From Agarophyton chilense (taxonomy: Eukaryota; Rhodophyta; Florideophyceae; Gracilariales; Gracilariaceae), in assembly GCA_030374765.1 (NCBI GenBank), contig JARGXX010000086.1:806001-870000 (forward strand): a stretch of DNA of 64,000 nucleotides, given 5' to 3'. The notes under the pieces were generated by a model. The model made no database searches and was not told the origin of the DNA. It saw only the letters and a program-made list of their open reading frames with translations. A program made the translations under genes and the position numbers. Positions 11,079-36,598 of this stretch are shown piece after piece (the first letter of the stretch is position 1; every line of letters starts with the position of its first letter).

Positions 11079-11541
11079 TCATGCCCAAGTGCGTCTATCC
11101 AATTCAAAGCCGGTATGGATATCAGTAGTCCAAATCCCTGAGGGAGCAATTTCATTCAAGGTCCTATACATCGCCAAGTTGCGTTTCGTTAGGGAGTCAG
11201 CGATATTTTCGCTCCCGGACACACAGAGTAGCACGTCCCAATCTTGACTTTCAAAGCTGTTGCATATACGCTAAACAGTTTGGGGTAGACGATATTCCCT
11301 ACCTTCGTGCAACGACGTGATGGTGTCTTACAGTCCTCTGGAATCGACGTGCAGCACGTGCTTCAGTAGGCTCTCGGTGTCCAGGGACCGCATTGAGCTC
11401 CGCAGATGAAAACTTGCGGTCGTCGGAGTCTACACAGGCGAGTATCTCTGCGCCATACAATAAGTGGCTGATGCGTCGTTACTTGTGGCTGGACCATTCG
11501 AGAATGTGGTGACTAGGAGGTGCCTCTGTCGTTGGGAAGCA
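11079..11541 (-). pseudogene. Copia RNase H, distal end
   Basis: Minus-strand reading gives VSGSENIADSLTKRNLAMYR, the motif near the end of copia RNase H where the polypeptide contains xxADxLTK, and ends RRTWA then TGA at 11079. Upstream of this the frames shift at least twice. It continues the RNase H at 11988-12286, from which it is separated by a solo LTR. Confidence 0.7.
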
Positions 11542-13278: not shown

Positions 13279-14412
13279 CCAATCCAGCCTCGTTTAGTAG
13301 CCAGATCTCAAACACCTTCTGCCATTGGCGCCCGGTCTCGACGATTCCGTATGGGAGCTTAATAAGGCGCCAGAGTATGAAACTTATCGACAATTAGAGC
13401 ATGTGGCATGCACAAGGGGGTCTGACAAAAACCGTGCGATTGACAGGACCACTTTTTAAGTATGCTCCCTTCACATCGATATTTCCTAATTGGAAGCAAA
13501 AGATTGTTGCCAAGCTAAGTAGTAGACGTATCACGGGAAACTAGGCGGGGGACGAATCTTTCCCGATGTTATCCTTTTCATCATCAAGCTTGCCGTGTAG
13601 CAATAGTCGAGACTTCATACTACGTATCCCGCTAACCTCTTTCTTGGTTTTGTATATAACATGGAAGGTGATGATATTGGCTTTAGCGGGGAAGTCGACC
13701 ACCGGGATGGGGATGTATGCTTCCTTCCAATTCGAGTCGTATTTGCGGCGGAATGCGTCGTCCATCACCCACGCGGGTGCGATCTCAGGCTTGCGGCGGG
13801 AAATTTGGGCATTCCCGATCTCAGCGTGGATATTTTTGACCACATCCTGGAGAGAAGACTTTAAGTCGCCGGAGTGTTCGGTATTGTGGTCAAAAGTGGA
13901 GTCGCCGATGTCACGTGAGGGGTTACCTGTCTTTCCCGATGCGAGGAGTGAGGGGTGGGATGGTGTATCGGTGCATGAAGCAGCGGAGAGGTTCATGCGG
14001 AGTCTGAGGGAAGCAGGAGGAGGTAGGTCGTCTGGGATAGTAGTGGGTGGGTCATCGAATGTGACAATGTCTATAGATCTTGGTGGTGGCTTCGGTAGTG
14101 GTGCGGGAGGGGTGGCGGGTTCCAGGTGGTTGATGTCACCAGGCGTGCCCACTTTGCTGCTCATCAGTGTGGTTGTGAGGTGAACAGAGGGGGCTTATCG
14201 AATGTCTTCTTAATTCACGGCCACAGCGGGGCCACGCAGCGAACGGCGCCACATTACCTAGTCGCGCTGAGCACCCTTCACCTTCCCACGAATATATTCC
14301 TTACGTTGATTATTACTCGTAGTATTAAGGAACAGAAAAACATCGGTACCGGGAGGGAGAAGGCGACTGGGAATAGTACTAGTGTCCCTTGATTTCAGCA
14401 GTGGTTGGATCG
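13279..14412 (-). pseudogene. Copia reverse transcriptase N-terminal part
   Basis: The minus strand carries DDAFRRKYDSNWKEAYIPIP, then FHVIYKTKKEVSGIRSMKSR, then after a stop at 13541 LLLSLATIFCFQLGNIDVKG, AYLKSGPVNRTVFVRPP and RQWQKVFEIWLLNEAG. This is the order of copia reverse transcriptase (W..A...E, K.K..G...+.K.R, QLDVK.A+L, W...+...L). Upstream is a proline-rich linker (PPAPLPKPPPRS) and, at 14258-14407, the integrase C-terminal end joined to 33677 across gypsy-1. Confidence 0.8.
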
Positions 14413-14990
14413 CGTAGTATTCTGCACTGTCAGAATGCCGATGGAACATTTTTTTGGCTTAGTATAATTATCTTCATAAGTGAGTGCAACGGCTAGGATG
14501 AAGTTATGAAGCGACACCCCGCAAATGGTCCATGAGTTGGTATTAAACACGTGGGACCTCGGCCTGCCACGACAACAGCGCATATACTGTAGCGAGTAGC
14601 CAAGCGGCAACCATTATCCCGTACTATAGAGGTGTTACTCAGCTAACCAATTTTATATCTACATATTATTATGTGCGGCGCTCACCCCTGTGCACTGTAC
14701 TTAAGGCACAGAAGGGAGCGCCGACTCCAAAGTAAAGGAGACAACAAAGGGGTTCACAACTCACTTGTCCCTTGTTCAGGATTCTTTAAGTGGGGATCCG
14801 GACAAGCTAAAACAAACAGTTGTCCATTCAATAGTACCAACCACCCTCATTGGCGAGTGGGGCCTTACAACCCCCATTCGAGCTCGCTAGTGTTGTGGTC
14901 TACCACACCTTTCCCTTAGCCGCAAGCACCCCTTCGGCAGTCCCTAACACTGTTGCAGTTGTCTGCTCTCTCCGTAGAGCGGATACTGAA
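14413..14990 (+). repeat. Gypsy-1 5' LTR (LTR-A)
   Basis: 578 bp, nearly the same as 33101-33676 by eye, including the long shared block TTATATCTACATATTATTAT onward. The first base is mutated (CGTAGTAT instead of TGTAGTAT) and the end reads GGATACTGAA instead of GGATACTACA. Confidence 0.9.
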
Positions 14991-14992
14991 AG

Positions 14993-15010
14993 TGGTCTCC
15001 CGACTTAGAA
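14993..15010 (+). promoter_or_regulatory. Primer binding site of gypsy-1
   Basis: TGGTCTCCCGACTTAGAA starts two bases after the LTR and begins with TGG, as expected for pairing with the CCA end of a tRNA. Gypsy-2 has the related TTGTTTTCCCGATTTAGAA at the same distance (22588). The priming tRNA was not identified. Confidence 0.6.
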
Positions 15011-15190
15011 ACACTGTGGTTTGCTACTCCAAATATTTCGCACCTGCAACGTGGAATCGATACCATTCTTCAATTCGAATGGAATACGAACTCGGGAGCG
15101 GTTTCCGATCACGTCCAGCTATTACGGAGTTTCGTAGTTAACTACGCTGTCGTATTCGATTGAAGACCTCAATTATTTTGTCGCCGAACA

Positions 15191-17378
15191 TTGGAATCGT
15201 TCGGAACGCCGAAAAAGAAGACCCAGCCTAGTACTGGTGCCCCGGGTCCTTCAGACTCACTCCCACAACCGAGGCTCGCCTCATCTATAGAAGCCGGAGA
15301 GCGACGATACCATCATGCGATGACGCACTCTCGTTCGGTGACCTATAGACGAGATCTCTCGGATGTACCCATGCCCGTGGAGTTGGCTATTGCACTAACC
15401 ACGCAGACCGATGGTTCCCATAATGAACCTAGAGACCAACAGGTCGTAGCCCTGTTGGAGAAAATGATGTACACGGTCAGCTGCTTAGTCTCAATTTGAA
15501 TCAAATGCCTATCGTGAGCGAATCATTGGAGTGAAATCGCAGATGGCAATCATTACCGAAGAAGTCGAGCGCTTACGCCGAGAACAAAGCTTACTCGCTC
15601 GTCGAGAAGAAAGGGACCCGATGCCCGCGGTTGTGAGAGCCCTGCGAGAGGATTTGAACCATTTAATGGAAAGGCATGGTAATGCTTCGGAGGCTTTACC
15701 GGGCCTGACCGTTGACGAGGGAGAAATCCTTTCTATATTGAACCCTCGTCTGAAACGCCTGGAGGCAGTGGTGAATGCGCAGACTACTGTTATTCTAGTC
15801 GTCAAAGACGAAAATGAAGTCCCTTTGAGGGAAGAGCGATCGAGGAGATCGAATTCAAGACGTCGCAAGAAGCGAAGGTCCAAGCCGGACACGAGCGATG
15901 ATTCATCAGGATCGGGGGATGAGGACTGCAGTTCGGACGAATCTGACTCGCTAAACACGTCCACTGACGATGCTAGTGATGATGATCATCCTAGTTTCCG
16001 TTCTAGGAAGAGGAGCAAGGCTTCTTGGCTATTAAGGAAGAAGGATCCGAAGTACAAGCGTCTCAGGCCACTTTCTTGTACGAATCCGTTGTTTCGGAAA
16101 GTCCAGGACTACAGGTAGTATAGCTTAAAGAAAGGAGGAAAGAAGCGATCGGGTCGCGAAACCGCAAAGGTTAAGGACCACATTAGGCGGTTGAAGATTG
16201 GACTGAATGATCCAGTCTTTGATGGAAAAACGCCCATTCTCAATATCGAGTTCCTTACTCGTTTTGTTGCAGAGGCGGACACCTTTGAAATGAGTGAACC
16301 TCGAGCTTGGGTTTCATTATTACATTTCTTGACGGGTTTTGCGTCCGAGCAGTATCGTTCCGTTTGCGGATCCCTGACCGCTGAAGAAGGAGGTGTGACA
16401 TCCTGGCCGGAGGCAGTACAGTACTTACTGCGCAGCTATGCGACATCGAACGCAATCCGACCGACTATCCTGGATCTTCGCCATGTGACCCAAAAATCTG
16501 GTGAGGAAGAAGCAGAGTACAGCTCGAGGCTTGACCGAATGGACACGCGCTGTGGAAAAGTTCACTCAACGGACGACAAGATTACCATGTTCATCGATGG
16601 ACTCGATCCCAATACCAAATCTCTGGTGGCTCGGTTTCGAGGAAAGCATGAAAGAACCCCATTTCTGGAGATGGTTCAGTTTGTTCTAGCTGAAGGTGGC
16701 GTGGTAAGAGCTCGCGGAGATATGCGGAACAACAAAACTCTTGGGGCATCCAAAGCAGAGGAAAGACACAAACAAGCCGCGAAGTCCACTCGAAAGTTGT
16801 TCCACCTGGAATCTCCAGTTAACTGTCGGGAGTCGTCGTTCGCTAGACACGATAACCAATCGTAACATGATGCTATTCACCTTATGGATTATTGGCACTC
16901 ATCGATGCTTTCAGAGGATCTACCTCAATCAGAATCCCAGGAGAAAGAAGCCCTAATGGTTATGGAGGGCATACGCCCAGTACCCCGTGCTTACATGAAA
17001 CCCCCGGAAGGAGGATTCAAGAATGAAAAACCTGGAGAAGTGGACACACGAATAGCGTCCCGATCACCACCGAGGTTGGTAGCACGGCGTGAAGCGTTAA
17101 TAGGCTGTCTGTGCTATGGACGTCATCATCTCTCTTCAGAATGTACCCTTCCTGCAAAGGATTTAGTTCGCGTCCTCACGAATTACGAGACTCACTCAGA
17201 GGAGGAAAAAACCCGAGTGCCGGTTAGTACGTACTGGAAGGTCAAAAGCTGGCTTAGCTACCATCCTGGACGTCAATATGGAGCTCCAGTGATTCAGAAC
17301 ACTGAAGCACCACAGGCTGTTTCGCAAGTTGGAAGCAACGCCTCAAGGGCGAACGACCCGCCTCAGTCGGGAAACTAA
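15191..17378 (+). pseudogene. Gypsy-1 gag, degenerate
   Basis: Four frames in sequence: 15191-15499, 15531-16118, 16191-16865 and 16884-17378. The second has a coiled-coil-like start (ITEEVERLRREQSLLARREE) followed by a Ser/Asp/Arg-rich stretch. The third holds the capsid-like core (LHFLTGFASEQYRSV, WPEAVQYLLRSYATSNAIRP, MFIDGLDPNTKSL). The fourth contains a zinc-knuckle-like CLCYGRHHLSSEC at 17106-17144. Stops and shifts separate them, so the gene is dead. Confidence 0.72.
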
Positions 17379-17476
17379 GTGAAGGAACCCCTAGGGGGTC
17401 GGCCCTATTACATCGCGTAGAGCCGAACAGGGAGTACTCACCTCCTTTTTCCCGCGCTTGGAAACCCAAGATTCTG

Positions 17477-19868
17477 ATGAAAACTCATCATATTCCGTTG
17501 AGCGGATTGAATCCGTCCCTTGGAAAGCGAGTACAGTTTGACTATGAACTCAAACGTCGTCGGAGACGTTATGTTTGTCCGTGGAAACGGGAAAAATTTA
17601 TTATGGTAATGCAGAGGAGGAACTATAATGTCTATGCCAACCTCAGCTCGGACAAAGATTTATTGACCCGCCGCCTTATAGTTCTTGATACAGGCGCCAG
17701 ACCACAATTTATTCGGATATTTGAACTAGGACCCACCGATCAGGAACAAATTCGTGACGGTCCGTTGCCAGATATCCGAGATGCTAATAGAAATGAAGTG
17801 AGAACACTTGGAACAGTGAAGTTGCTCGTTTGACTCGGACACTTTTTATTGAAGGTAAATTTTAGTGTCTGCAACTCACTGGCCGCACCAGTTGTTCGAG
17901 GATATGATTATTATAACAGAGTTTTCGAAGTAATCCGCCCTCGAAGTCGACTAATCCCGTTAGAAGATGGCTCGACAGTGCCAATAGTGAGAAGACCACT
18001 ACGAAGAGTCCCTTCAGCTGATCCACTTCCACCCTCAATGGAATATTAGTTAGCTCATGGTCTTACATGACCAAAGATTCGTGTGTCGAAACCTACAGTG
18101 TCGAAGGCTCAATCCCAAACTTGGGTACAAGTGATAACACAACGACACGGTCTCGCGGTAATCCAGCCTAATGCTGCGATGTACGAACATCGAGAACCTC
18201 TCGCAGCGAATGGAATCGCCCAAGTTGAACCGGGCAAACCCTTCCAAATACTCATTAGTAACTTCACCGATAATGATTATCATTCACAGAAGAATCGGAT
18301 CGTTGCAGCTGCTCTGCCGCACCCAATAGCAGTAATTCCGACTCATGTCGCAACTACGGAAGTGCTAAAGTTTTCTGAGGTGTCAGACGAATCAACCTGC
18401 GCATATGAAGGTCTCAGAGAGCAGTCGCACCCAACAGAAGAAGAGAAGGAGCCAGGCCAGCTGTTAGAAGAAGTAGCTCTCGAGAATATTCCCGAAAAAT
18501 ATATGGAAAGAATCAAACAAATGTTGAAAAAGTATGTCTCTACATGGACTGGAAAATCAGGAGAGATCTACGCTACAGAACATTATATTGATGTTATTTC
18601 GGGATCTTCTCCCATTTCTCAGCCACCTTACAGAGCAGGACCGCGAGCTCGTCAGATCCAGGAGGACAATGTTGCCAAGATGCTGGAGGAAGTAGTATTA
18701 GAAGCAGCACAATCTGCTTGGGCTTCACCTGTGGTGTTAGTACGAAAACCTGATGGTTGTTTGCGATTCTGTGTCGACTACCGGAAACTCAACGCAGTTA
18801 CGATACAGTATACCTATCCACTGCCTCGCATGGACGAGTGTATAGACAGCTAAGGCAATTCGAACTTGTTCACCACGCTTGACGCCAACACTGGCTATTG
18901 GCAGTTTTCTGTAGCCGAAAAAGATCAGTGCAAGACTGCATTAGTGTCACACGCTGGACTATAACGTTTCAAGCGGATGTCCTTTGGATTTACCAATGCT
19001 CAGGCAGCTTTCCAGCGCGCACTGGCCATATTACTCTCGAAGTATAAATGGAAAACATGTCTAGTCTACTTGGGCGATGTCATTGTTTTCTCTCAAGATA
19101 TGGAAAATCATATGCGACATGTGGAAGAGATCCTCAAAGCCTTGCAGACAGCAGGTATAACTTTGGAGTTAAAGAAATGAGAATGGTTCGAAAAAACTGT
19201 AAAGTATTTGGGCCACATAACTAGGCCTGGTCAGCTTGCACATAATGAAGCTCAGAAAGCGACAGTCCACTAATCGCAACCACCGTCCCCACAGACTCAA
19301 TTGCGATCCTTCCTTGGATTATGGAACGTCTACAGCCGATTCATATCGCGAAACTCGCACATTTAAGCTCCATTGAATGCATAATTGCGTTAAGGACATC
19401 CTGTTAAGCTCGAGGAATTCCGACCCGCCTAATAGGAAGCCTTTAACACTTTGAAGACAAAACTCGTCACAGCACCAATCTTGGCCTTGCCCAAACCTAA
19501 CCTACACTATTCTTTGGACACCGATTCCAGTGAGTATCAGGTAGGGTTTGCCCTTTTTCGGACACATCTGGAAGGTCAGAGGAAACCAATTGGTTACTGG
19601 TCACGAACGCTGAACGCTGCAGAGAAGAATTAGTCCGTATCAGAAAAGGAATGCCTCGCGGTAGTGTGAGCGCTGACTACTTTAAGACCTTATCTTCAGA
19701 GGGAAACGTTTACCATCCATATGGATCATTCGCCCCTATGATGGTTATTATCAATAACAGACCCCTCCGGGGGAATAACACGCTGGCGCTTACGCCTATC
19801 TGAATTTGATTTCGAAGTTAAATATAAGAAGGAACTGGCTAACATACATGCCAACGCTTTATCGATGA
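17477..19868 (+). pseudogene. Gypsy-1 pol: protease, reverse transcriptase, RNase H
   Basis: Protease active site LIVLDTGARPQFI at ~17678-17716. Reverse transcriptase from ~18600 with WASPVVLVRKPDGCLRFCVD, YRKLNAV and LFTTLDANTGYWQF. The catalytic box near 19067 reads YLGD where active enzymes have YxDD, so the second Asp triad member is lost. RNase H follows with ALPKPNLHYSLDTDSSEYQV at 19480-19540. In-frame stops occur at 18853, 18963, 19180, 19273 and others. Confidence 0.82.
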
Positions 19869-20082
19869 CGATCTACCGTGTTTCGCAATGGAGATGAACA
19901 ACGATGAAACGAAACTTGAAGATCAAGAAGATGAAGGCAATTACTCTCAATTGGACCCTATTATGGAAGCCCATGGAACTGAGTCTCTCGATCAACTCGA
20001 GCGTATCTCGGTCACTGAGCTCCTCAATTAACAACTCATAGATAACTTCGGTACAGCGATACGCTCTCGTCTTAACGGGGGG

Positions 20083-22139
20083 TTGGAGTTGCCCTTTTCG
20101 CTCGAATCACGAGGTATATTGCTCAGACATGTCGAGAAGCATGATCAGATCGTGGTTCCGCACGCTTTGAAGAGTCTTGTACCCTACTTGGCCCATTATG
20201 CGAAGCTACCTGGACACCCAGGAGTAACAAGGTTGTTTATGACCCTAAAAACGGACTTCTATTGGCCAACGTCGGCAATGAACTGCCATGCTATGGTAAA
20301 GCTATGCCGTACGTGTGCGATGAATCGCTTGAAACTATATATAAATAGGAAAGAGATGAAACCATTCCCGGCGAAGGCGCCTTTATCATTCGTCAGCATC
20401 GACATACTTGGAGAGCTAATTAGTTCCAACCATAAATATTGCTGCCTACTGGTAATTACGGATCGATTCTCAAAACTTGTACGGACTCTACCGTTGAAGA
20501 GTACGACCGTCTCGGTAATAGGTAAGGATTTCATCAAACACTGGGTGTCTGTGTACGGACCGCCGGAAGTGCTGCTGTCAGATAATGGAAAACAGTTTGT
20601 CGCTAAGTTCTTTCAGAACGTATGCCGAAAATAAGGCATCAGGAACTTGTCTACAAGGACCTACCGTCAACAGTGTAACGGTAAGGTGGAACGCTACAAA
20701 CGTACTTTATTAGCCTCTCTTCGGCATTACATCGCGGATCACCCTAAAGAGTGGGACATGTACACAGACACACTCTGTTATGCGCACAACACGCAAGTGC
20801 ATACGTCTACCAAAGCGGCTCCTTTTGATCTCTCGATATCCCGTAGCCCACCGTCACTACCCATTAGGTTGGATGAAATCGAGGAAGACAAACTGACACC
20901 GGCGAAGAACCATCTGAGGTGGAGAAACGACCTGAGGTTAAGAACAGAGCAGGCGGCTCGAGAATTGGCGAGAACCCAAGCGCGTTAAAAACATAATTCG
21001 GACGCCCGACGTCGAGGACAAGTGTCAGATCTCAGGGTCGGAGGATACATCTTTGTTCGCGGGGAACGGCGTGAGAAGCAAGATGGACCACGTCACGAAT
21101 TGCTACCGGTAGCATCCGGACCTTTCAAGGTAGCGGAGCTCACCAATGTCATGGTAGTCCTGAAGACAGGAGAGGAAATTGAACATTCTTCGCGCGATCG
21201 TGTTGAAACCGCACCAGACAACCCTGATCCCCAGGAAACTGAGAAAAAACGCGCTGTTTATCAGCAGGAACGGGAGCTACACGTCTAATCAGACGATCCG
21301 CCTCCCGTGGCACATGGGGCTGACACGGCTCGTTATATCCCGCTGTGCGGCAGTACAGTGACATTCAATGGCAATTCTCCGAGAAATCTGAATAATCCTC
21401 GTGGCAAGAGCCAGCACTCTGGTACGACCACAGCACATGAGGACAGGAAAGATATTTTTAAAATTGGTCCAATGAGATCCGGTCCAGAAGAACCTGCACA
21501 CACGCCATCACCAGTTCAAGTTGAACCGTTAAGTGGAATACCACCCGCAAAGCGATTGCGCTTGGCAGCCGACCAAAGAGTAGAAGGCGAAGATGAAGCT
21601 AAACCTCCATTGCTGGTGGAAGCACCCCCAGCCGAACCCTCGGTGAAGAAGCCCAGTGCCGCTCAGAACCCTCAGAAGGACAGACAGAACAAGAAACGTG
21701 AATAAAAGCGGACAACCGTAGACCCGACGACTGTGCAGTCAGAAGCGGAGAACGACTCTACAGAGGCACAAAAAGGCCCTCAGCTGTCCCAACAGACTAC
21801 GCAGGTTCAACCTGAAGATATAGGTAGTTCCCAAGGGCCCTCTTGGGAGGTTCAAGGAAATGAAAACGGTGCCATATCCCGTCAGGATTCAACGCGTTTG
21901 TTAGTCAGACGGTATAAACCAGTGAACCAGAACCTCGCGCCATCCGCCGAAACATTGGGAAATGCCCAGGAATACGTTATGGATCGGATCATCGATCACA
22001 ATGAAGACAAAAACACCCACAGACTACTGTATCGTTTCCGTTGGTACGGTTTTCCCCCGGAAGCGGATACGTGAGAGCCTATAACTCTTATTCCGCGCTC
22101 GCAGGTTGTGCGTTATCATCGTCGCATTCGACTACCACT
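20083..22139 (+). pseudogene. Gypsy-1 integrase and chromodomain
   Basis: 20083-20634 has the HHCC zinc site (LAHYAKLPGHPGVTRL, CRTCAMNR) and integrase residues Asp in SFVSIDILGEL and Asp in VLLSDNGKQFV; the Glu is in NGKVERYKRTLL after a stop at 20632. 20647-20988 and 21022-21288 give the C-terminal part. 21307-21705 is a Pro/Ala/Lys-rich linker. From 21970 the frame reads EYVMDRIIDHNEDKN, then RLLYRFRWYGFPPEADT and SQVVRYHRR, a chromodomain. The last codons are cut by gypsy-2; after 31044 the same frame continues as PAEIDTAMMGFLDPILRRDC and stops near 31090. Confidence 0.85.
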
Positions 22140-22585
22140 TGTGAAGGAGCGGTGATAGATGTTGAGCCCTGTGAGGCACCGGGCTCTAAAGGATCTCGGA
22201 GATGACACGTGTACGGGTCAACCTCAGGTGGACTCATGTAGATTATTATTATTTTTTAATTAGAGTAATAGATTAACATTATAGTGCCAGGGAGATCCCA
22301 GCGCCTCGCCAGTACTATTTACTTGGCTCGAGTGACGCTTCTCCCTTAGAGTACGGTAGGCACTGTTAGGATACTAAGTAACTCCCTTTGGTATATTAGT
22401 TCCACACGTTGGTCTTCAATCCATCGTTTCCGTAGCTCCAACCTGTAGGACTACGTATTAAACGCCAGCCCATTGCACCAATTACTCTGGGAGTGCCGCC
22501 GTCAAGGATTCGAACCTTAGGACCCGCTCTACCACGCTACCACCGGTCGAGACCCGTACGTTGACCCAACAGTCATTGCGTTACA
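22140..22585 (+). repeat. Gypsy-2 5' LTR (LTR-B)
   Basis: 446 bp from TGTGAAGGAGCGG to GCGTTACA, matching 30594-31038 in direct and 11542-11987 in inverted orientation. It carries the antisense tRNA-like segment (B box GGTTCGAATCC on the minus strand, 22506-22516). Confidence 0.92.
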
Positions 22586-22769
22586 TTTTGTTTTCCCGAT
22601 TTAGAAACCATTGGAATTATTGAACGGACCACTGGAACGAAGAATTATTCGGATTCTAACCTTTGGTTTACAACCCCAACGGACCAGAAGTACAGGAGCA
22701 ACCGTCATTATAGATGCAGGAAACACACCCAACTGACCTGACCATAGGAATTCTACGGTAGGGCAAAGT

Positions 22770-24790
22770 GTGACTACAATGCCGGCGATGTCGCCTGACC
22801 CTCAGGTTGATACTCCTAGCGACTGCAGAAGCACAAGGAGCCAGCGGCAAGAAGTACTGACTCCACTGGATAACCCTGAAAGGATTCACCGAGAACGCAC
22901 GGTGGCAGCGCGTTTACGAGAACGCCTCACCAGGGCCACCTCTAGGCCAAGGACATCTCAAGGAGAAACCCCCCAGACCGAGGAAATTCGAGAAAACCTG
23001 CCTGCAGGTCTTGCCGACCTTCTCTGGCCCCGTCTCCGTGAGCTCTGCTCAACCCACGTGGATTCCATTATGGACATGCGACTCGCTACGACGATCGCTG
23101 AACATACGGATTACCTCATCGCGCGAATCGTCCTTAAGGTATTGGAGTCTAACTTATTCATAGACTCCCTCCTACAGGTCGTTCAAGGAGCCGTCACCCG
23201 CCAGGCAGGCAATTGCGTCCCTAGAACTACCCCACCACAAATTGACCATCCGGTCTCCATATGGCGACCCTTTACCGAACCCCCAGAAGCGGCGGTGTTA
23301 CCCGCCCCTCGCCGGGAATACCATCAGGAAAACACTATGGTGGGACAATCTAGGAGTAGAAGAGAAGCTACGCGTCTAGATCAGAGACAGGTGGCCCATC
23401 AGGGGAATCCAAGGGAGGGACAGGCGAGGAGCAGAAGAGAAGCTGTGCGTATAGATGAGAGACCGCTTGCCCCACCCGACGGATTATATGAGGTACAGCG
23501 ACCTCAGGGCTCCATCGGATCTGATAGAGAGATCGATCCTTTAGGTCCCTATTCCGCTGGAAAGAAAAGAAGCAACGGCAGGAGATAAAAGAAAAGAAGT
23601 AGCAAAAGAAGAGACCATTCGGACGCGAGTGATTCCGAATCGGCCTCGACCAAAATGACCGACTCGGAAGTGGATGAGGCTGCCGTTCGAGGCCTCAGAT
23701 CACTGACAACCACAAACGAACCTTTCCTTAAGTTTCTAGACTACCGGAATTACCGGCTGGCAGACAGGTCCGCGAAGTATTCTGGTTTGGCGGATCGCAG
23801 GATCGCCAAATGGGCCAAACGGATGCAATTAACCATTGCAGACAAGTTCTTGGGTTCCTATCTCATTGATGCCCTTAGGTTTCTCAGTTTGTTCCGTACG
23901 GCCTGCGATCAGAACAGAGTCCACGAGGGCGCCGCTCTTTACCTTTTCCAAGTCTTTCTTACAGGACAGACGCGTGACCGAGTGGTTTCGAAGATATCTG
24001 GCACAATTGACCTCGGGGATGCTCAAGACCGTGAGCTCTTCAGGTCATACCCTCAGGTTGTTCATTACCTCTTCGAAACTTACGCCACGGATGAAGTTAT
24101 AATGGATGCCCACCAGAAAGTCATATCCTTTAGGCAGAGCTCCAACATGACCGAATCGGCTTTCGCAGGCAAACTATGGAAGAAGGCTTACCGGTGTGGA
24201 AACGTGTTCTCCGAAGGACGGATTAAACGTCACTTCATCAGGGGATTGCTCCCTGCCATTCGGACATATGTGCGCAATTACCACACGGAAAACCCGCAAT
24301 AATCCTTCCGAAGGCTCGTTACCTATGCCGAGGGTTATGGAAAAACCTACAGGACCTCCAGGCATAACGCTGATATAAGCAGAGAACACGCAACTCCATT
24401 GCGTACACCCAACCAAGCCCATTTGGTTAGCTCCACGGAGTCGGACATGGATGCTTCATTCCATTACGCCAATTTGAGAGACATCCTTGCCGTCGATTTC
24501 AGTGCTCCTTCGTTCGTGCCCCCATCATATACCTCCCAGGGAACTACAGCGACCACTAAACCAGCTACACCCATGTATTCTCCCTTTCCGCCCCGCAAGG
24601 ACGTTTTTGTTTGCTCTCCAAGGGCCTGCTTCCTCTGCCTTGCCATGTCCCAGCATTGTGACTGCACGAGGAATCTGCCTAAGGACGCACGTAAAAACCT
24701 CCTAGCCCAAAGGGAAGTGTATTACCGGGTGCAGAGATCGGGAGGAATGTATAACAGGGCACAGCAACGAACCAAAGGGACCCCTGGAAG
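22770..24790 (+). pseudogene. Gypsy-2 gag, degenerate
   Basis: 22770-23588 is an Arg-rich N-terminal part with two similar ~27-residue units, each with RSRREA(T/V)R(L/I)D. 23655-24302 is the capsid-like core (AALYLFQVFLTGQTRDRVV, HYLFETYATDEVIMDAHQKV, KRHFIRGLLPAIRTYVRNY), ending at an in-frame TAA after which the same frame reads on. 24399-24800 contains a zinc-knuckle-like CFLCLAMSQHCDC at 24627-24665. Positions of core and knuckle parallel gypsy-1, which has little sequence in common. Confidence 0.72.
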
Positions 24791-25141
24791 CTCACGCTAA
24801 GCCACACCTCCGGATACTCTGATCAAAGCCCCACAGGTCCACGCCATTGTAGATCCTACGGAGGACCCCGTGGAAGAATCCTATCCTCAGAAAGAAACGG
24901 AAACCCCATCAGAAAACTCCTAGAAGAACGACTCGAGGCAAATCCTCCCTCTTCAAGCCCCTGCCTCAACCAATTAGACGGTCATGAGCCAAAGAGCTCC
25001 TCACCTCCAAATACGAACTACCCACAATGGACCACTCAGGATGAACCACAATGGGAACACAGTAACGATCCCGTCTGTATCCTCAGGAAAGAAAACTATG
25101 AAGTTCGAGTAGCAGTAGGACTTCGTTCCAAAAACTCTCGA

Positions 25142-27337
25142 GTGACCACAGCTGTATTAGACACAGGTGCTGCCCCCAACTTTGACCATCCTAAGCTACT
25201 CCCACTGGGTTGGAAAGATTTCGTTCAGGCAAGGAAGACCTCAAGAATTACCGATGCATCACGTAGACTAATGGACATTAAAGGAATAGTACCACTATAC
25301 CTCCAGGTCGGACAATTCAAAGTCCTCACGTGGTTCCTTGTATGTCCTAGCTTGGGCACTGAGGCAATCCCAGGGACCTCCTTTATCGTCAGATAAACTG
25401 AGGCCATTTATCCAAGCCTTAGGAAAGTCGCGTTCTACCATGCAACTTCCATCTCCATAACTGGTTCGGCCCCAGGGCCAGAAGCTAACCGCAAACGAGC
25501 GGTTGTCTCCGAAAACACGACTTCCAATAAGGTTCGCCTGTCCAAGGCCATAACGATACCCCCGATGACCCAAATAACTGTATCGGTCCATTCCCAGTTC
25601 TCAGGTCTCGTAACGAATCAGAACCACCCGAAAACGGCTCTGAAGCATATTACCTTGATGGCCAATGGAGTAATGGACATCCTCCCTAACAGGCCCTTCT
25701 TGGTCATAATCAGCAACTTTTGAGATAAACCCGTACGGCTACCTAAAGGTACAGTGATGGGTATCAGTTTACCCACGCCCGTGGCCATTATGGAAGTCCA
25801 AATGAATAACTTTGCGACGCCAACTCTCGACGAGGACGTCAAGTCTTGGGATGAGACGGTCGCCATCGACGCAGAATTCGAATCCTATAGGCCCCAGGTA
25901 CTTGATCTCCTCAGGGAATACCAAGTTATGTGGTCAGGTAGATTGGGCACAATCAGAGCCACTACAAACCGCATTGGCCTTCAGGATGATGCTACACCCC
26001 AGTTCCAGCACCCATACTGTACCGGCCTTAAAAGTAGGGAAATCGTCGCCGACGCGATGGACAAGATGCGCAAAGCTCAATTCAGAGAGCCGGCGCCTCC
26101 AAACCAATCCGAATGGGAAAGATTCCTTGTCCTCGTGGCGAAGAAAGATGGCTCGGTCAGGTTCTGTGTCGACTACAGGAAGCTGAACGCAGTAACCAAG
26201 AGGTCATACCCGATACCCCGCATGGACGACTGTCTGGATTCCTTAGCCAAAGCTGTCGTATTTACCACACTGTACGCTAACTTTGGATACTGGCAAATCT
26301 CTTTGGCCGATGACGCGAGAGCGCTGAAAACCTTTACCACCCATGAAGGTCTGTTCAGATTTACTCGCATGCCCTTTAGTTTGAACAATGCACCAGCCCC
26401 GTTCCAACGGGTAATGGACATTATACTGTCCAGAGTCAAATGAAAGTTCGCCCGGGTCTATTTGGATGACGTTAGAATCTTCTCAGTGACCGTAAAGGAA
26501 CACTTTCGCCACGTGAAGAAGGTGCTAACAATTTTACAGGACGCTGGGGTAGCACTGAAACTCCGCAAATGCACTTTCTTCCAAGCCTCAGTGGACTATC
26601 TCGGTCACGTCGTCCTACCAGGAAAGCTAAAGGTGGCCACAGGAACAACGAATGCGATTCGCCAGGATAAACCTCCTAGGACTCACACGGAACTACGATC
26701 CTTCGTGGCCTTTTGCAACGTTTACCAACGGTTCGTCCAAGGGTTTGCCAAGATCTCGGCCTCTCTCAACGCGATGCTGAAGAAAAGAACACCTTCGGAG
26801 TTCTAAGCCCTTTCCGACGACCAGTACGAGGCATTTGAGACCCTAAAGGACCAATTGCAGAACCCACCCATATTAGCTTTACCAAAACCCAATAGGCCTT
26901 TCGTCCTGGACACAGGTCCCTCTGATGTCCAGAAGGGTTGTGCATTGCTACAGGAACAGGAGTCACCGAAGGACTATCAACCTATTGGCTACTGAAGCAG
27001 AACGCTCACCAGCGCGAAGCGAAACTACAGTACGACCGAAAAGCAATGTCTAGCCATCGTATGGTCTGTACTGGCATTCCGTCCGTACCTCGAGGGAAGC
27101 AGGTTTACCATTAGGACAGACCATGATTCACTCCGCTGGTTACTCAAAATGACCGATGCATCGAGTCGCCTCTCTAGATGGCGCCTCAGGCTCTCCGAAT
27201 ATGACTACGAGATAACCTATAGACCAGGCATCACGCACAAGGCAGCGGATGCCCTCTCGCGAATCATTACCGACGGAACTGATGACACCCCATTGGACGA
27301 CCTAATTCCCACCCCCTTTACAGATTATGGACCTTAG
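25142..27337 (+). pseudogene. Gypsy-2 pol: protease, reverse transcriptase, RNase H
   Basis: Protease TTAVLDTGAAPNFDHPKLL at 25145-25200. Reverse transcriptase 25754-26806: VRFCVDYRKLNAVTKRSYPI, FTRMPFSLNNAPAPFQRVM, and after a stop at 26441 the catalytic box VYLDDVRIF near 26457. RNase H with ALPKPNRPFVLDTGPSDV near 26880, TIRTDHDSLRWLL near 27110 and ITYRPGITHKAADALSRI near 27215. Single stops separate otherwise good frames. Confidence 0.85.
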
Positions 27338-27559
27338 AACAATACGGGAACAGATGAACATATGGGTAAGGTTCAATTGGAGGATCCTGAGGTAAAGGAG
27401 AACGAAGTATACGTATTGGACTGGTAGACGGTACCGCCCAATTCGGCACCACCTCAGGTCCATGCGATAGCCCCGGAAGAAAAAGAGCTCCTCTATATAA
27501 CTATTTAGGAACCCCTACAGGCCCAGGTCGAACACGATTACTGCAAAGAAACAGCCTAA

Positions 27560-29390
27560 TTGGTAGGAACCCCAGGATACCTGTTCGATTATGACCGATT
27601 TGGACTACTATGTCGCCGCTCACCGCTGGATGGGGCACTCCAACGGGTAATACCAACTTCGCTAAGGGCGCCATTCCTATACTTCCCCCAATTCCCCCGC
27701 TTGGCTGGTCATTCTAGAGGCCCACGAATGTACCAGACCCTAAGGAAGTTCTTGTACTGGACACTAATGGCGCAGGACCTATAGCAAACCGCACGGAACT
27801 GTGCATCGTGCTCACAGATCCGAGGGTCTCGCGCCAACCATCAGGGCAAATTGAAGCTCTTCCCCGCCGCAGGTCCGATTCAATTTGTCGCAATGGATAT
27901 ACTTGGGCCTTTGTCTAATTCGTCACATGGGAAACGGGTAGTTTTGGTTATATATGATAGGATTACCAAACTTACCCAAGCCCTACCCCTCGGAAAGACA
28001 ACTGCCACGGATGTCGCCCCGGCCTTCTTGTCCCACCGGGTATATCCATGTGGCATGCCACTCTACCTCCTTACAGATAATGGCAGCCAGTTTGTATCCA
28101 AATTCTTCTCACACGTTTGTGATACCTTAGGAATCAAACATGTGACCATGACGGCGTACCACCCGCAGGCAAATGGCTAAGCCGAACGCTTCAACTGCTC
28201 CCTTCTGGACCGATTGGCACACTACGTATCGGAGCACCAAGTGGACTGAGACGGCTACGTTGAGCCACTCGTTCATGCCTACAACACGCAGATGCACGCT
28301 TTCACAGGGACAACACCGTTCGACTTAGCGCTAAGAAGAGCGCCGCCGCCGATAGCTGTTGGCCTTCAGGAGTCTATCATACCCCAGGACATAACCGAAG
28401 GAATGACTGCTACCCAGGCGAAGCGCTACTCGCGCCGACGCATCGATCGCATTATTCTATCGGCCAGAACTGTCCTAACCAAAGCCCAACGGCGCCACAA
28501 GATCAATTTCGACAAAGCCGTTTCGAACACACCGACCTTTGGGATAGGAGACCTGGTTTACCTGGACAGGCCACCGAAAGACAGTAAGGAACTCGAGGAC
28601 ACTACGCAAAAGCTCTTATACCGCTCTACAGGACCATACAAAGTCCTTAAGGCCAATGAACACACCATCACGTTTCTCATCGATGGCCTACAATACACCG
28701 TGTCTATTGACCGCGTGACACGAGCTCCCAGTTCCCCCGGACCACCAAAGTCCCAGCCCCCTGGCCCAACGGAAGCACCACGACCTCAGGTCGACTCTGA
28801 AGCCTCCACACCACCTAAGGCAGTTCCCGAGGACTCGACTAGCCGCACGGACACGATGGTTCGTTCCAACTATTATGAACCATCGCTCCCAACCGACTCC
28901 GATGGATCCGCCCCTCTGGACCACACTCTCTTTCCGGAGTATGAACATCAACAGGAATATTTGATTGAGCGCATCATCTCCGCCGGTCGGGGAGGAGATA
29001 GAATTATGTGCTATCGCGTCCGTTGGTTCAGCTACACAACTTAGGAATATACTTGGCAAGAGCCTCAAACCATTCCGGCTAATTCTATCGCCCGCTATTG
29101 GCGCAGAATCAGCCACTCGGAGCGCGGCCTTCAGGAGGGGGCAACCATTGGTCCGAATAATTCCAAAATGCTTCCCAAACCGCCTCCTGACACGACTGTT
29201 TGCCGGAGCACGACGGTTCGTCGTAGCTCTCGCATCAGGGAACCAAGTCAGTCCTTCGGAGACACCTGAGGAAGACCTGAGACGCTCACAAGATTGAACG
29301 CCGTCCCGGGGCGCGCACATTTGAGATACAAGAAGGACCTTAGGAAAGCACAAGCACTAATTTATTCAACTTATTCGAGTAAGTAACAGA
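27560..29390 (+). pseudogene. Gypsy-2 integrase and chromodomain
   Basis: LAGHSRGPRMYQTL (zinc-binding region) near 27700; after stops, FVAMDILGPLSNSSHG and LLTDNGSQFVSKFF give the catalytic Asp residues at 27851-28180. The frame breaks after AYHPQANG, just before the Glu region. 28292-29044 holds the C-terminal domain (GIGDLVYLDRP, LLYRSTGPYKVL) and a Pro-rich linker. A chromodomain follows at ~28955-29090 (EYLIERIISAGRGGDR, RVRWFSY). The frame tail QEGATIGPNN is shared with gypsy-3. Confidence 0.85.
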
Positions 29391-29451
29391 GGCCTAACTG
29401 CCCTCGGTAAGACCTCAAGGTTCGCGGAAGCGCTCCGAACACCAACAGGAC

Positions 29452-29962
29452 TCACTGGGGCGGCGCAGGAGTAACTTCGTCGTCCACATTTGAACCTGCA
29501 GGAGTGAAATCTGGACTAGGGTCACCCCAGGAGCCAACTAGACCACTTCAACCGGCCCCAATGAGCCGAGCAGGCTTCTTCGGCGGAGATTCACCTCAGT
29601 AACTAATGTCACCGTCGCAAACCTCCCGGTCACCCAAATTAAGACCATACCCGGCATCCAAGTCGTCAGTAACCCTCTGGGACATCATCTGTGCCTTCTG
29701 CTAGCGGATATTGACCATAGCGGTCTTCAGATTCTGACCATGTTGTACAACCGTGTCGTAGCGCACCTAGCGACGCTCCCAGAAGTAAGCTTCCCTAAGG
29801 ACTGTCGCAATGTCCATCGAGGCAGTAATACCAACGGGACGGCACAATGGCATGATGCTCTGCTCGTGGATCTCAACTGATGGTATGGTCATAGCGGTCC
29901 CCGGGGCGCTCTTAAGCTACTTGGTATCCAGAGAAGCTCCCTGCTTGGTTGTTTGAAGCCAT
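29452..29962 (-). pseudogene. Antisense frame downstream of gypsy-2 pol
   Basis: The minus strand between pol and the 3' LTR carries a protein-like frame. It starts MASNNQAGSFSGYQ (ATG at 29962), shifts frame near 29910, then reads MTIPSVEIHEQSIMPLCRPV, ASMDIATVLREAYFWERR, and after two stops VTDDLDAGYGLNLGDRE, ending PAPPQ at 29452. The matching frame in gypsy-3 (62119-62328) reads VTADLDARYRLNLSDRQ and ends in the same codon position (PVPAQ). Pol ends about 60 bp away, so the two are tail to tail. No family recognised. A TATA-like CCTTATAAG lies upstream near 30060. Confidence 0.5.
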
Positions 29963-30580
29963 GCTGGCGCTGCACACAGGTTGGTCCGCAGGGAAATGGA
30001 TAGAAAACCCGACGGAAGCGACATAGTTGGGAGGGAGGATGGCATATGGGACCGGCTTATAAGGCGATCGCGGCATCGCGCGCGATCAATGGAGGAATAC
30101 CGCGACGGGAAGAAGGAAAGATGAAACCGAATCGGGCAGGATGACTGACGTGACCTTGAATGGACGAAGCGTGCACCGTGGTTCACGGCGGACAACGCGC
30201 GTAGGGTCACCAAAGGAATACCGAAGGATAAAAAAAAGCGGCCAGGAACCCCCCCCCCCCGGTGCGCATACAGTACCTCATGTGAATTAATTGCCAACTT
30301 GGCGCCAAGGGTCAGGTCTTATGCACTGGTACCCTCGAGAATAATGGCGGTGCGACGCCCCGTCGCGCCCACTGGTAAGGAGAACAGCTGAGCCCCGGGA
30401 TGGCCATAAGAAGCCGACATGTCTGTCACGGCACCGCTCGTGTCCAGGCCATTAGAACGCTGAGGATCACGACATTCCAACCCCGAAGGCAAGATCGGAA
30501 GTTCACCCATAGGTCCAACTAGAGCCAGACTCCCAGGGAGGTGTGAGGAAATTTGGACTTCGCTGTGACGGTCGAATCCT

Positions 30581-30591
30581 AAGGAGGGAGA
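30581..30591 (+). promoter_or_regulatory. Polypurine tract of gypsy-2
   Basis: AAGGAGGGAGA lies two bases before the 3' LTR, the expected site for plus-strand priming. Confidence 0.75.
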
Positions 30592-30593
30592 TA

Positions 30594-31038
30594 TGTGAAG
30601 AAGGGATAATAACGGTTGAGCCTGGTAAGCCGGCTGGCCCTGAAGGATCTTGCAGGTGACACGTGTACGTGTCGACCTCAGGTGGACTCATGTAGATTAT
30701 TAATTTAATTTAACTAGTGTAATAGATAAACACTACAGTACCAGGGAGATCTCAGCGCCTCGCCAGTACTATTTACTTGGCTCGAGTGACGCTTCTCCCT
30801 TAGAGTACGGTAGGCCCCGTTAAGATTCTAAATAACCGCCTGTGGTATATTAGTTCCACTCTTTGGTCTTCAAGCCATCGTTTTCGTAGCTCCAACCTGT
30901 AGGACTACGCAGTAAACGCCAGCCCATTGCACCAATTACTCTGGGAGTGCCACCATCAAGGATCCGAACCTGAGGACCCGCTCTACCACGCTTCACCGGT
31001 CGAGACCCGTACGCTGACCCAACAGTCATTGCGTTACA
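30594..31038 (+). repeat. Gypsy-2 3' LTR (LTR-B)
   Basis: Direct copy of 22140-22585 with visible substitutions; begins TGTGAAGAAGGG and ends GCGTTACA followed by the CCACT duplication. The antisense B box at 30960-30970 has one change (GGTTCGGATCC). Confidence 0.92.
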
Positions 31039-31242
31039 CCACTCCCTGCAGAGATCGACACTGCCATGATGGGCTTTCTAGACCCGATTTTGCGGAGGGA
31101 CTGCTAATTCCCCTCCCCCTCAGAAGAAGGAAGAAGAAGAGAAGACTCGGTAAGACGAAGACAAGAAGACTCGACAAGACTAGAGAAGAAGAAGAAAAAG
31201 TACTTTGGAACACATGAAGTCATGGACATAGAAGAATTTGGT

Positions 31243-33176
31243 TTAAGTTATCGCCTCAAGGGTGTTGACGATATCTAAAGTCGGTCGAGGTACATACCCG
31301 CGGGTATGATTATTCAGCATGGCGGTAAGATCAGCACGATCTCCTTGCAGCTGTTCTTCGGGGAAGTCCGCGTCTAAGAGGAATTGTCTCAACGGTGCCA
31401 AAAAAGGATCCTCCACATCGCTCGGTTGTTGGGCGAACCCATGATGGTACCCCATCGACGGGTTGACACCCGATGCCATAGCCGTTGGTGGCGAAGCAGC
31501 CGTCATAGACGCAGTACCAGATAGTTCGGGTTCATCCTCGAAATCGAGTTCTGCATCAGCACCTAGAGCTTCTTCATACTCCTGATCTGCAAACTCAGAA
31601 GGTGTGGACTCGTACACATATCCAGTACGCTGATTTGGAGAGCACTCTCTAGGATTCGCACGAGGGTCACGAGCCTGATCAGAAGTGATTATCTGGCTGG
31701 TACAGGGATTGAACCATACAAAGTCTCCAGCATTAGCTGTGCGTCCCGGCGAATGATCTCTATTGCGCACCCTTGTGCATCTAGCTGATTGCTTCAATGG
31801 AACCCCATCCCAGTCGATACTGTCGATCAAGTCTACGAAGAGTAGGAATTCGTCATAATTGGCACGGGACCACAACACAAGGGAAAGATCGAGTTGTCTC
31901 GCATATCTCCGCGCTCTTGACGACATGTACCAAACCCTATAGGTATGGCATGCATCCCAAAGGACATAAGCTTCCATCTTGGCAATGATATCGGAGAGCA
32001 CGACCGTCCAGTACCCCGAGAACGGGTCGTTGATCAATGCGGAACCGATATAGGTTTTATGGCAGGATGAAGCTCCATCGGAAATCCACGAGGGCTCTCG
32101 ATCTCCGCCCAGTGTTCTGGCAGCGCGACATAGCGTCCGACGCGAGCATTCCACCTACTTCGATCAATCTCGATCATTTGGTATGGAACCAGGTATCCCA
32201 AGCGGGATCTCGTACGTTGTTCCCAACGAGGATAATCCCAGTACGGAATGTCTCTCTTATGGAGGAAGCGGAAGTTCGCACGGAGCAAGGGCCGGCGAAA
32301 GCAGAGTGCCGCGTTGCGTACATCGCGGGATCCGCGCCATTCGTTGACGTCGACTTCGTATAAGGTCTCGATGTACGAGTATCCTCCGCCATTCTTGCGA
32401 GCCATACAAGGATCCAGATTCCAGTCTCCAGTGAGAACGACCGTGCCAATGAACCGGTGCGGACGCTGGTATATCAGCTTGGTGAACCGAGTTCGGGCTT
32501 CGTCAATACTTTCGTTGGTATACCGGGCAATAGAGTTATCTGGCAGGGCACAGTGAGTAAGCCAATCGTGGCTGCAGGTAGCCGCATATGGAAGGCCGTC
32601 GGGAAGTTTACTGCCGAAGACGTATCGGGTGATCAACGCGTCATCGCGAAGAGCGACTGGGTCAGAGCAGGGAGCCTGTGCGAAGAGGTCAACATCGGCG
32701 AGAGGTTCTCGTCCCACCAAGTCTGTGGGATATGGATAGCTGCGTTGAGCCCGACGAGACGGCGCTCGAATGATCCCAGCGGAGGATACATAAGCCGTAT
32801 TCGACATCACATCTGAAGCCGGAGGCTGTAAGGGCAAAGATTGGAAACCCACGCGAGGAGACCGCATTGACCGGAAGATCGGAGGCACTGTGGCATGCAA
32901 ATCGAAGCCACTGCTGGCGTAAGGACCCTCGGAGGGTACGTCTCCGTTGTTGGAGTTTTGCAGCGCGTAGGGGTTCACCGCTGAGCAATTTGGAACAGAT
33001 AGTACATTCGTGGAGACGAAGAAATTTCGGAACGCGAAGCATGCTCCGGTATATAAGGACGTCTTGCGTCGCCGGTGCTTCGCGCTTAACGGGGGGATTG
33101 TGTAGTATTCTGCGCTTTCGGAATGCCGATGGAAGATTTTTTGGCTAAGTAGAATGATACTCATAAGTGAGTGCAA
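31243..33176 (-). CDS. Unknown protein antisense in gypsy-1, two overlapping frames
   Basis: Between the chromodomain and the 3' LTR of gypsy-1 the minus strand holds two long open frames: 33176-32034 (380 codons; its first ~30 lie in the LTR, and the first ATG outside is at 32867) and 32154-31243 (303 codons) in another frame, overlapping by ~120 bp. The first contains TNESIDEARTRFTKLIYQRP and VVLTGDWNLDPCM. The second contains YARQLDLSLVLWSRANYDEF and an acidic tail (EEALGADAELDFEDEPE). The likely original is one ~600-residue protein broken by a frameshift near 32040. No internal stops otherwise, unlike the gag and pol of the same element. No membrane segment or known motif seen. Pol ends near 31090, tail to tail. 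Confidence 0.55.
33091..33097 (+). promoter_or_regulatory. Polypurine tract of gypsy-1
   Basis: GGGGGGA, three bases before the 3' LTR at 33101. Confirms that the sequence 31044-33100 belongs to gypsy-1 rather than to gypsy-2. Confidence 0.65.
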
Positions 33177-33676
33177 CTGCTAGGATGAAGTTATGAAACG
33201 GCACCGGCAGATGGTCCATGAGGTGGTATGTTACACGTGAGACCTCGGCCTGCCACGACAACAGCGCATATACTGTAGTGTGTAGCCAAGTGGCAACCAT
33301 TATCCCGTACTGTAGAGGTGTTACTCGGCTAACCAAGTTTATATCTACATATTATTATGTGCGGCGCTCACCCCTGTGCACTGTACTTAAGGCACAGAAG
33401 AGAGCGCCGACTCCAAAGTAAAGGAGACAACAAAGGGGTTCACAACTCACTTGTTCCTTGTTCAGGATTCCTTAACCGGAGATCCGGAGAAGATACAACA
33501 AGTAGTTGTCCATTCAATAGTACCAACCACCCTCATTGGCGAGTGGGGCCTTACAACCCCCATTCGAGCTCGCTAGTGTTGTGCTCTACCACACCTTCCC
33601 CTTAGCCGCAAGCACCCATTGAGCAGTCCCGGACACTGTCTCAGGTGTCTGCTCTCTCCGTAGAGCGGATACTACA
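33101..33676 (+). repeat. Gypsy-1 3' LTR (LTR-A)
   Basis: 576 bp, TGTAGTAT at the start and ATACTACA at the end, an 8-bp inverted repeat. Matches 14413-14990. Followed by the GATCG duplication at 33677. Confidence 0.92.
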
Positions 33677-34720
33677 GATCGCAGGAAGGGACTCTTGCTC
33701 ACAGTAGGCATCCAGGAGATCTTGAGGGATAAAAGTGGTCGGGGTACCGATGACAGATGGGGAGTATCATCTAGCCAGTTCAAATGCACTCAGAATTTTC
33801 GATCCCTGAAATATGTTGGTGAGGAACGAGCATCGGGATATGACGGCCTCAAGGGTTTCTTCGGGGAGTTCTCGAGCTAGACGACAGAAGATATTCTTAA
33901 AGACGCCGTTATTTCTTTCGATTATACCGGTCTTATTAAGACGTCGGGCCGGACGCGGTCGCATAGTGATATCATGCTGCTGGAGGAAGCGCTTCATCGT
34001 CGAAATCTGGAACTTCGGATCTGAGCTTAACCTCGCGGGAGATCGATGTCGGTCGATTCATATCTGTCACATCATATTAGCCATTACCCCTGCCATGCGG
34101 TTCTCGGCGATGCAACGTTCATCGTATGCTGTGCCAGTGTCGATAATATTCAGCAGAATATGTTTCTTACCGTGAAAATCAAACCACATATAGTCGGCTT
34201 TGGTTTCCTGGTTGAAGGCCTCTTTGGTGTGAGAGATGGAGATCTCCTTTAAATGCCTAGGTCGTCTTTTGGAAGCACAAATCTGGCACGCATTAAAATT
34301 TTATTGAAAGCTTCCGCTAGTTCCGGGGTCGATATACCTGCCTTTTCCTAGAGGCTCTTCATTTCGTCGGAGCTTTCATGGGTAAGGCGGTGGATCTTCT
34401 TGGCCGTAGAGTCCAGGTCGATTCCGGATACATGCTATTAAGGAACAGATAGTAGTCATTTGATGGAGAGCAATCTCTACAAGAATGCGTGGGACACCTT
34501 TGTCATTCGTGATATATGTGAGTATTATCCGCGGCGAGGTATCACTAGGACGTTGGAGCACGATATGAGGCAATTCACCACGATTGAAGGTGTCACAATA
34601 CTGCTTAACATCTAAGCCCATAATAAGCGACGATGAACTCGGCACCAAATCGTAAGTCAGAGAAGTAGGCTTTCCATTGATATTAAACATGGTGAAGGTC
34701 CATGAGCATGTTATCAATTT
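33677..34720 (-). pseudogene. Copia protease end and integrase
   Basis: 34376-34717 contains SSSSLIMGLDVKQYCDTFNR, like the end of a copia protease domain. Then KIHRLTHESSDEMKSL gives the H..H part of the integrase zinc site, with the matching C..C in the next frame. MWFDFHGKKHILLNIIDTG and, at 33767-33997, RLNKTGIIERNNGVFKN give the catalytic Asp and Glu regions. At 33677 the frame runs into the gypsy-1 target site and resumes at 14407. Frameshifted in several places. Confidence 0.8.
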
Positions 34721-36117: not shown

Positions 36118-36598
36118 TTTCCTGGGAACAGAGCTCAGATCTGGGGCTATAATGTTGTAAAATCGCTGGTCGCCATGAGTCTGATCTTACGAGGATTCAA
36201 GAAGAAAGGTATAATGAGGGAGACGGCTGTAATGGTGGATAGATGAAGAATAGACAGATACGGCCCAAGCCGGTAAATAGAAATTCTCGAATAAGGATTA
36301 CTAGATGGGGAGAAGAGGTTGCGTTCATCAATCTAGGCCGTAAAGTTCCTCCTTTTTCTCTTTCTCTTCGTTCGTCCCTATGATACTTGTTTTCTGCTCT
36401 GTATAAATACTCTTCTGCTTTCTGTCCGCACCACTTCACGTTTTGCTTCCCATTGCCTGCTAGTTGCCCCTGGAGTTCCCCCACCTTTCATTCTCCACGT
36501 TTGGATTGCCATTCTCGTGCTCTAGGCTTTTTGCATGTAACACTCCCGTGCTCTTGTCTCGTTGCATTACCAGTTTTGGTTTGTGGTTGCATTCACTT

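Follow-up and report, generated by a model that had tools for sequence, protein, structure and literature searches.

A Selected Antisense Gene between pol and the 3′ LTR in a Chromodomain Gypsy Lineage of the Red Alga Agarophyton chilense

A gypsy retrotransposon lineage of the red alga Agarophyton chilense carries a third protein gene, antisense to gag and pol and located in the interval between pol and the 3′ LTR. Its frame is that of a selected protein gene, with constraint about that of gag and pol, and the two minus-strand frames found in the window (the whole 64,000-nucleotide stretch of DNA analyzed here) are a decayed copy of it. The first-pass annotation had proposed that a chromodomain gypsy lineage of an alga has its own antisense gene at this place, and position, genomic copies, and dN/dS all agree with that proposal. 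We think it probable that this third gene would be expressed from a separate antisense mRNA as a trans-acting accessory protein, most likely nuclear and binding nucleic acid or chromatin.

The Antisense Frames Lie within a Gypsy Element Split by a Second One

Minus-strand frames of 380 codons (32034–33176) and 303 codons (31243–32154) are present as first described. Their placement inside a gypsy element also stands, because the outer LTR pair and the GATCG duplication enclose them (Table 1); this rules out a position outside the element, which another LTR pair (22140/30594) had suggested. The outer LTRs are ∼576 bases long and 91% identical across 581 aligned bases; behind the 5′ LTR comes a TGG-type primer site, and the 3′ LTR has a G-rich tract ahead of it. 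Elements that carry the antisense gene have the LTRs, target site duplication, gag, and RT-RNaseH-integrase order of Ty3/gypsy elements.

Table 1. Coordinates of the Outer Gypsy Element, Its Antisense Gene, and the Nested Element in the Window
Feature	Position	Strand	Evidence
GATCG target duplication, left copy	14408..14412	.	sequence at element edge
Outer gypsy element, owner of the antisense gene	14413..33676	+	LTR pair 91%, TSD GATCG
5′ LTR of outer element (right edge approximate)	14413..14990	+	LTR pair
gag region of outer element, 2 stops	15498..17042	+	Pfam Retrotrans_gag in 16191-16865
Protease-RT region of outer element, 12 stops	17348..19579	+	matched codons; Pfam RVT_1 in corresponding frame of copy L043
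Integrase region of outer element, 2 stops	20086..21219	+	Pfam rve and Integrase_H2C2 in 20083-20634
Chromodomain (part), pol end of outer element	21973..22071	+	Pfam Chromo E 0.0049, below curated cut-off
CCACT target duplication of nested element	22135-22139 and 31039-31043		
Nested second gypsy element, separate from antisense gene	22140..31038	+	LTRs 88% identical
Antisense gene, 3′ part with the acidic linker and the conserved helix pair of the C terminus; stop codon at 31243	31243..32055	-	frames and relative protein
Antisense gene, 5′ part; relatives' presumed start is GTG at 32978 here	32046..32978	-	frames and relative protein
Antisense-gene leader up to 3′ LTR (presumably untranslated)	32979..33100	-	
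3′ LTR of outer element; putative antisense promoter site	33101..33676	+	LTR pair; promoter inferred
GATCG target duplication, right copy	33677..33681	.	sequence at element edge

The nested element, absent from the first-pass annotation, is inserted just past the outer chromodomain and separates pol from the antisense gene. Behind it only 2.6 kb of the outer element remain, comprising the antisense gene and the 3′ LTR. A second copy of the inner gypsy family, 83–84% identical, occupies 57317–62369. Sequence comparison found no recognizable homolog of the antisense gene in either the nested element or this relative, nor behind the relative as far as the window end. The window thus holds a second gypsy lineage without a recognizable homolog, and the antisense gene is therefore not needed by every such element. 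Among the best 50 of 150 matches of each, no inner-type chromodomain is paired with an antisense match of the lineage termed D below.

Other repeats surround this nest. Direct repeats at 10442–10888 and 36153–36612 (84%) enclose it entirely, and minus-strand frames at ∼12.3–14.2 kb and 34.4–34.7 kb look Copia-like by eye. Pfam RVT_2 matches 12329–12613 under its cut-off (E 0.00078), and 13541–14164 and 34376–34717 have no Pfam match; possibly an old minus-strand Copia element was invaded by the outer gypsy element, making a triple nest. A solitary inverted copy (91%) of the inner element's LTR lies at 11541–11988, and 12610–12991 is an inverted stretch related, at 69–70% identity, to part of the LTR of the outer element. 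At 1296–1943 and 7155–7429, ∼5–6 kb apart, are inverted repeats (218 nt, 94%; 65 nt, 97%) that possibly mark a DNA transposon or hairpin element.

The Two Frames Form One Gene

A single relative protein is collinear with both frames, its residues 23–366 aligning at 33086–32046 and residues 363–609 at 32055–31303. The two frames are therefore one gene with one frameshift near 32050, close to the junction near 32040 at which they had originally been joined. The 380-codon frame begins inside the 3′ LTR, which covers its first 25 codons, and the presumed start methionine of the family reads GTG in this copy.

The frames had first drawn attention by their near-absence of stops relative to gag and pol. 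This holds for the window copy, with no stops in 598 matched antisense codons versus 18 in ∼2,100 codons of gag-pol (pol pieces overlapping slightly), but does not extend to the family: among the best-scoring copies only, for both genes, the antisense frame has 112 stops in 72 × 611 codons (2.55 per 1000) and the integrase 103 in 104 × 398 (2.49 per 1000). Low stop density is thus ruled out as a family-wide mark of the gene.

Position and Orientation Are Shared among Genomic Copies

We searched the 79.8-Mb, 135-contig assembly that contains the window, and all copy counts are lower bounds drawn from the best-scoring copies. The 380-codon frame gave 1540 candidates, of which the best 108 places were scored; the 611-codon frame of another copy, C4, gave 1825, of which the best 72 were scored. 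Among these 72 best-scoring matches, 58 yield the 611-codon frame when stops are read through and 14 are stop-free, although four of the 14 score identically and may be one locus assembled repeatedly.

Three copies of a second subfamily (B) were read piece by piece with both LTRs, which are 95.7% (C4), 95.3% (C88), and 86.4% (C111) identical. In all three, the chromodomain match is on one side of the antisense frame and the 3′ LTR on the other; the frame is tail to tail with pol and opens 14–15 bases from that LTR. With the C4 integrase as query (best 104 scored places of 3994 candidates), 38 of the 104 places have a tail-to-tail antisense match at 1076–2244 bases among the matches listed, 2 have a head-to-head match within 8 kb, and none has one in the same direction. 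The tail-to-tail arrangement noted in the window is the same in the copies read with both LTRs and in the 38 integrase matches.

The first-pass annotation had held that other copies lacking the frame would speak against the gene. Most copies examined have it: all three with both LTRs, and six of eight further integrase copies, chosen by eye near the top of the list and followed for ∼3.3 kb behind each. Of the remaining two, one has a distant homolog in reversed direction, and the other, with no gene in its 3.3-kb stretch, may have lost it. Opposite the antisense gene, a 271-codon sense-strand frame is open in L032:865–1677, L046:1174–1986, L050:1262–2074, and L053:1307–2119, and is taken for a shadow frame.

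Two additional lineages of this genome, C and D, have homologs at 34–40% identity that face other pol genes tail to tail. Copy C4 has lineage C beside it, and a lineage D copy, L054, has a 673-codon open frame facing its chromodomain. A 221-codon lineage D query gave 1297 candidates; of the best 150 scored places, 115 are stop-free. Three lineage D antisense matches at C68:3139267, 3148464, and 3157661 have identical scores, lie on the same strand exactly 9197 bases apart, and represent a tandem element array or an assembly repeat. In total, the genome holds at least about 290 scored antisense places, spread over two subfamilies and a further lineage.

This distribution bears on whether an older nested mobile element landed by chance beside pol and left its gene there. 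Nesting is rife in the window, but the place and orientation are the same in copies of both subfamilies (A and B) and of lineages C and D, the three B copies read with both LTRs share the short distance to the 3′ LTR, and no close relative with an empty site was seen; we give such a chance insertion hardly any credence. A gene belonging to the element is the reading we retain.

The chromodomain itself is matched less firmly. Pfam Chromo matches at the pol end have E values of 0.0049 and 0.00049, both under the curated cut-off, and place the domain C-terminal to the integrase in the window copy and in lineage D. The subfamily B chromodomain was recognized by its match to that of the window; Pfam Chromo has no match in the B piece L044:396–1388 or in the lineage C piece L032:4227–5555. 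Chromodomain elements outside the chromoviruses are reported from brown algae in the cited part of PMC12477816.

The Antisense Protein Is under Selection

Codon comparisons covered 49 of 53 copies, each with at least 200 matched codons; 15 belong to subfamily B, and the 34 others, among them the window copy and the distant L049, were grouped as A. Pairs with fewer than 150 shared codons were excluded from dN/dS. Between A and B the median dN/dS is 0.128 (pairs with computable dS among 499), a rough ratio because the median dS, ∼2.2, is near saturation; dN is 0.28. Divergence at the three codon positions is 0.27, 0.22, and 0.57, so that third positions are twice as variable as the others. Equal rates of synonymous and non-synonymous change between copies had been named at the outset as grounds for rejecting the gene, and between the subfamilies synonymous changes are far in excess. 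With dN/dS at ∼0.13, the frame is a selected protein gene, and a chance open frame is ruled out.

The other genes of the element provide a scale. Between the window copy and the three B copies, dN/dS is 0.12–0.13 for the antisense gene, 0.14–0.15 for gag, 0.16–0.19 for RT, and 0.09–0.10 for IN. Among the three B copies themselves, the four genes range from 0.49 to 1.27 and the antisense gene from 0.58 to 0.90. Likewise, the ratio within subfamilies is 0.70 for B (104 pairs) and 0.62 for A (561 pairs), as expected from the decay of copies after insertion; selection is visible only in the deeper, between-subfamily comparison.

These ratios also speak to a reading in which the antisense RNA is the functional part, acting through dsRNA or transcriptional interference, and the protein frame is a by-product. 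The cited part of a review (PMC7264820) discusses control by antisense RNAs in other retroelements, but the low dN/dS and the variable third positions indicate selection on amino acids, and three outside proteins (P0014, P0015, and P0020) are collinear relatives of the window frames at 31%–42% identity. We therefore judge an RNA-only function highly improbable. An antisense RNA may have a role alongside the protein, not in its place.

Outside Relatives of the Family

A search of 5.8 billion proteins returned 18 distinct outside proteins in all. The nearest named ones to the 380-codon frame are entries of Agarophyton chilense, a red alga of the order Gracilariales, labeled “unnamed protein product,” 51–82% identical over the aligned parts; the other named relative is P0016, a “hypothetical protein” of Gracilariopsis chorda. 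Further relatives are P0006, P0009, P0018, and P0021, together with the three collinear proteins. Several Agarophyton gene models and the Gracilariopsis protein thus belong to a family whose carriers in this genome are transposons. No match was found among viral contigs, with P0015 as the only query, or among phage records, with P0014 as query.

Host origin, which the first-pass annotation had considered possible, is not borne out, as none of the relatives among the 5.8 billion proteins has a named function. A captured host gene that keeps a cellular function and is passively carried would be in line with the general ability of retroelements to capture genes, discussed also in the cited part of PMC7264820, and the outside relatives could not be assigned to elements. 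Against it stand the lack of any functionally named relative, the number of genomic places across two subfamilies and a further lineage, and a constraint that resembles that of pol. A passenger of this kind is very unlikely, and a gene serving the element is preferred.

The Protein Matched No Family in the Databases Searched

Full-length members have ∼525–660 residues; a conserved core is joined by an acidic linker to a short helix pair, likewise conserved, at the C terminus. The core is neutral to basic and aromatic-rich, whereas the tail has a pI of 4.0–4.6. The structure prediction and profile search that had been suggested at the outset were both run, with a limited yield: AlphaFold2 with 14 sequences gave a mean pLDDT of 43.7, too poor for a fold search, and no family in Pfam, NCBIfam, or PHROGs matched the antisense proteins above cut-off. 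In the predicted model, 83 of 547 residues reach 70, chiefly where the core ends and within the C-terminal helix pair.

Matches below threshold are scattered. Pfam E3_binding matches 6 of 14 members (best E 0.029) and ARM_TBCD_2nd 1 of 14 (E 0.28), and the NCBIfam BspF model matches 1 of 14 (E 0.042). One of 14 members has an Ish1-type C-terminal match (E 0.092; 13.5 bits against a cut-off of 26.6); together with the loop-containing helix pair, this gives a hint, from sequence, of a DNA- or chromatin-binding end. Chromo has no match in any antisense protein scanned with Pfam. Searches of the PDB by sequence returned nothing for A1 and a single match for A6 (E 0.31). A 37-residue motif gave 12 rows in the PDB, the best to IcmE (E 0.00049), in which no individual stretch passed; the other rows are short matches to unrelated proteins.

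The same data weigh on a structural or particle-associated protein, whether a second capsid-like, an envelope-like, or a movement-like one, made from the antisense mRNA in place of a regulator. Its constraint, about equal to that of gag and pol, would suit such a protein, and a transcript of its own would uncouple its dosage from gag-pol. However, the element already has its own gag, no capsid-like or envelope match appears in Pfam or in the PDB by sequence, and the maximum 19-residue Kyte-Doolittle mean in six proteins is 1.6, so that nothing is as hydrophobic as a membrane span. We regard a structural role as unlikely overall; its envelope-like form is rejected, since the gene is antisense, not sense, and has no stretch like a membrane span.

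A Proposed Accessory Role

Our preferred reading of an accessory protein would operate as follows. An antisense promoter in the 3′ LTR would drive a separate mRNA convergent with gag-pol. We infer this from the position of the open frame, which begins so close to the LTR in C4, C88, and C111, and from the presumed start methionine, which in C4 is ∼170 bases from it. The protein would act in trans as an accessory factor, and by analogy would most likely be nuclear and bind nucleic acid or chromatin. It would most likely tune the element's transcription, RNA fate, or integration, as suggested for Grande gene23 and Retand TRP28. A regulatory role, already entertained in the first-pass annotation, is plausible by analogy; perhaps the protein is a nuclear, DNA-binding regulator, as analogy and the sub-threshold motif match together suggest.

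HTLV-1 HBZ is a retroviral antisense regulatory gene with an antisense promoter inside the 3′ LTR. The likeness lies in the antisense gene and in the promoter, here a putative one; HBZ is retroviral, and no sequence relation to it is claimed. More speculatively, the antisense gene could be a third core gene kept throughout the divergence of the red-algal chromodomain lineages, unrelated to known families, whose product would be a regulator acting with the chromodomain, an independent counterpart of the retroviral antisense regulators. We offer this wider reading tentatively, as possible but doubtful.

Comparison with Known Systems

With these results, the few retroelements on record that have a conserved antisense gene come to include a red-algal case and a lineage with a chromodomain. 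The dN/dS values show that the antisense gene of an LTR element can approximately match gag and pol in constraint. In this genome the gene combines abundance, divergence, and compactness, which makes the role of antisense genes in LTR elements testable outside land plants.

The arrangement has precedents. Antisense additional genes between pol and the 3′ LTR are described for Retand, Grande, RIRE2, PvRetro13, and fungal Boty in the cited parts of PMC11963269, PMC7264820, and PMC8365987. Retand, from flowering plants, is not a chromovirus lineage; its antisense proteins match Pfam TRP28 (PF04195) and are predicted to bind DNA, according to the portion of PMC11963269 cited here. In contrast to Retand, which combines a TRP28 match with the absence of a chromodomain, the red-algal elements have sub-cut-off chromodomain matches and no TRP28 match in either window frame, in 5 proteins, in 14 members, or in the L054 frame, P0015, and P0020.

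Maize Grande gene23 has its own promoter and a nuclear protein, and rice RIRE2 carries aORF-3R (excerpts of PMC7264820). Both have their antisense gene at the same place as here; they are land-plant elements, and the likeness drawn here is one of position. Botrytis Boty-like elements carry the antisense gene brtn (cited passages of PMC7264820 and PMC8365987). Boty shows an added antisense gene in an LTR element that is not from land plants; it is fungal and is likened here by arrangement.

Chlamydomonas REM1, an algal gypsy element termed a chromovirus, has a reverse-oriented frame (cited part of PMC2774666). As described there, the GPY/F module and chromodomain of REM1 are encoded by the reverse frame itself, whereas in Agarophyton pol encodes the chromodomain and no match of this kind occurs in the antisense protein. 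The first-pass annotation had pointed to antisense frames at this position in plant Tat/Ogre-type gypsy elements, which lack chromodomains. In the passages cited, the algal, chromodomain-bearing REM1 and the non-plant Boty come before the present case. Among the papers listed in searches of open-license full texts, none described an antisense gene in red-algal LTR elements. Considered together, the antisense aORF-3R position is known from other systems, and the protein family, the chromodomain carrier, and the red-algal host look new.
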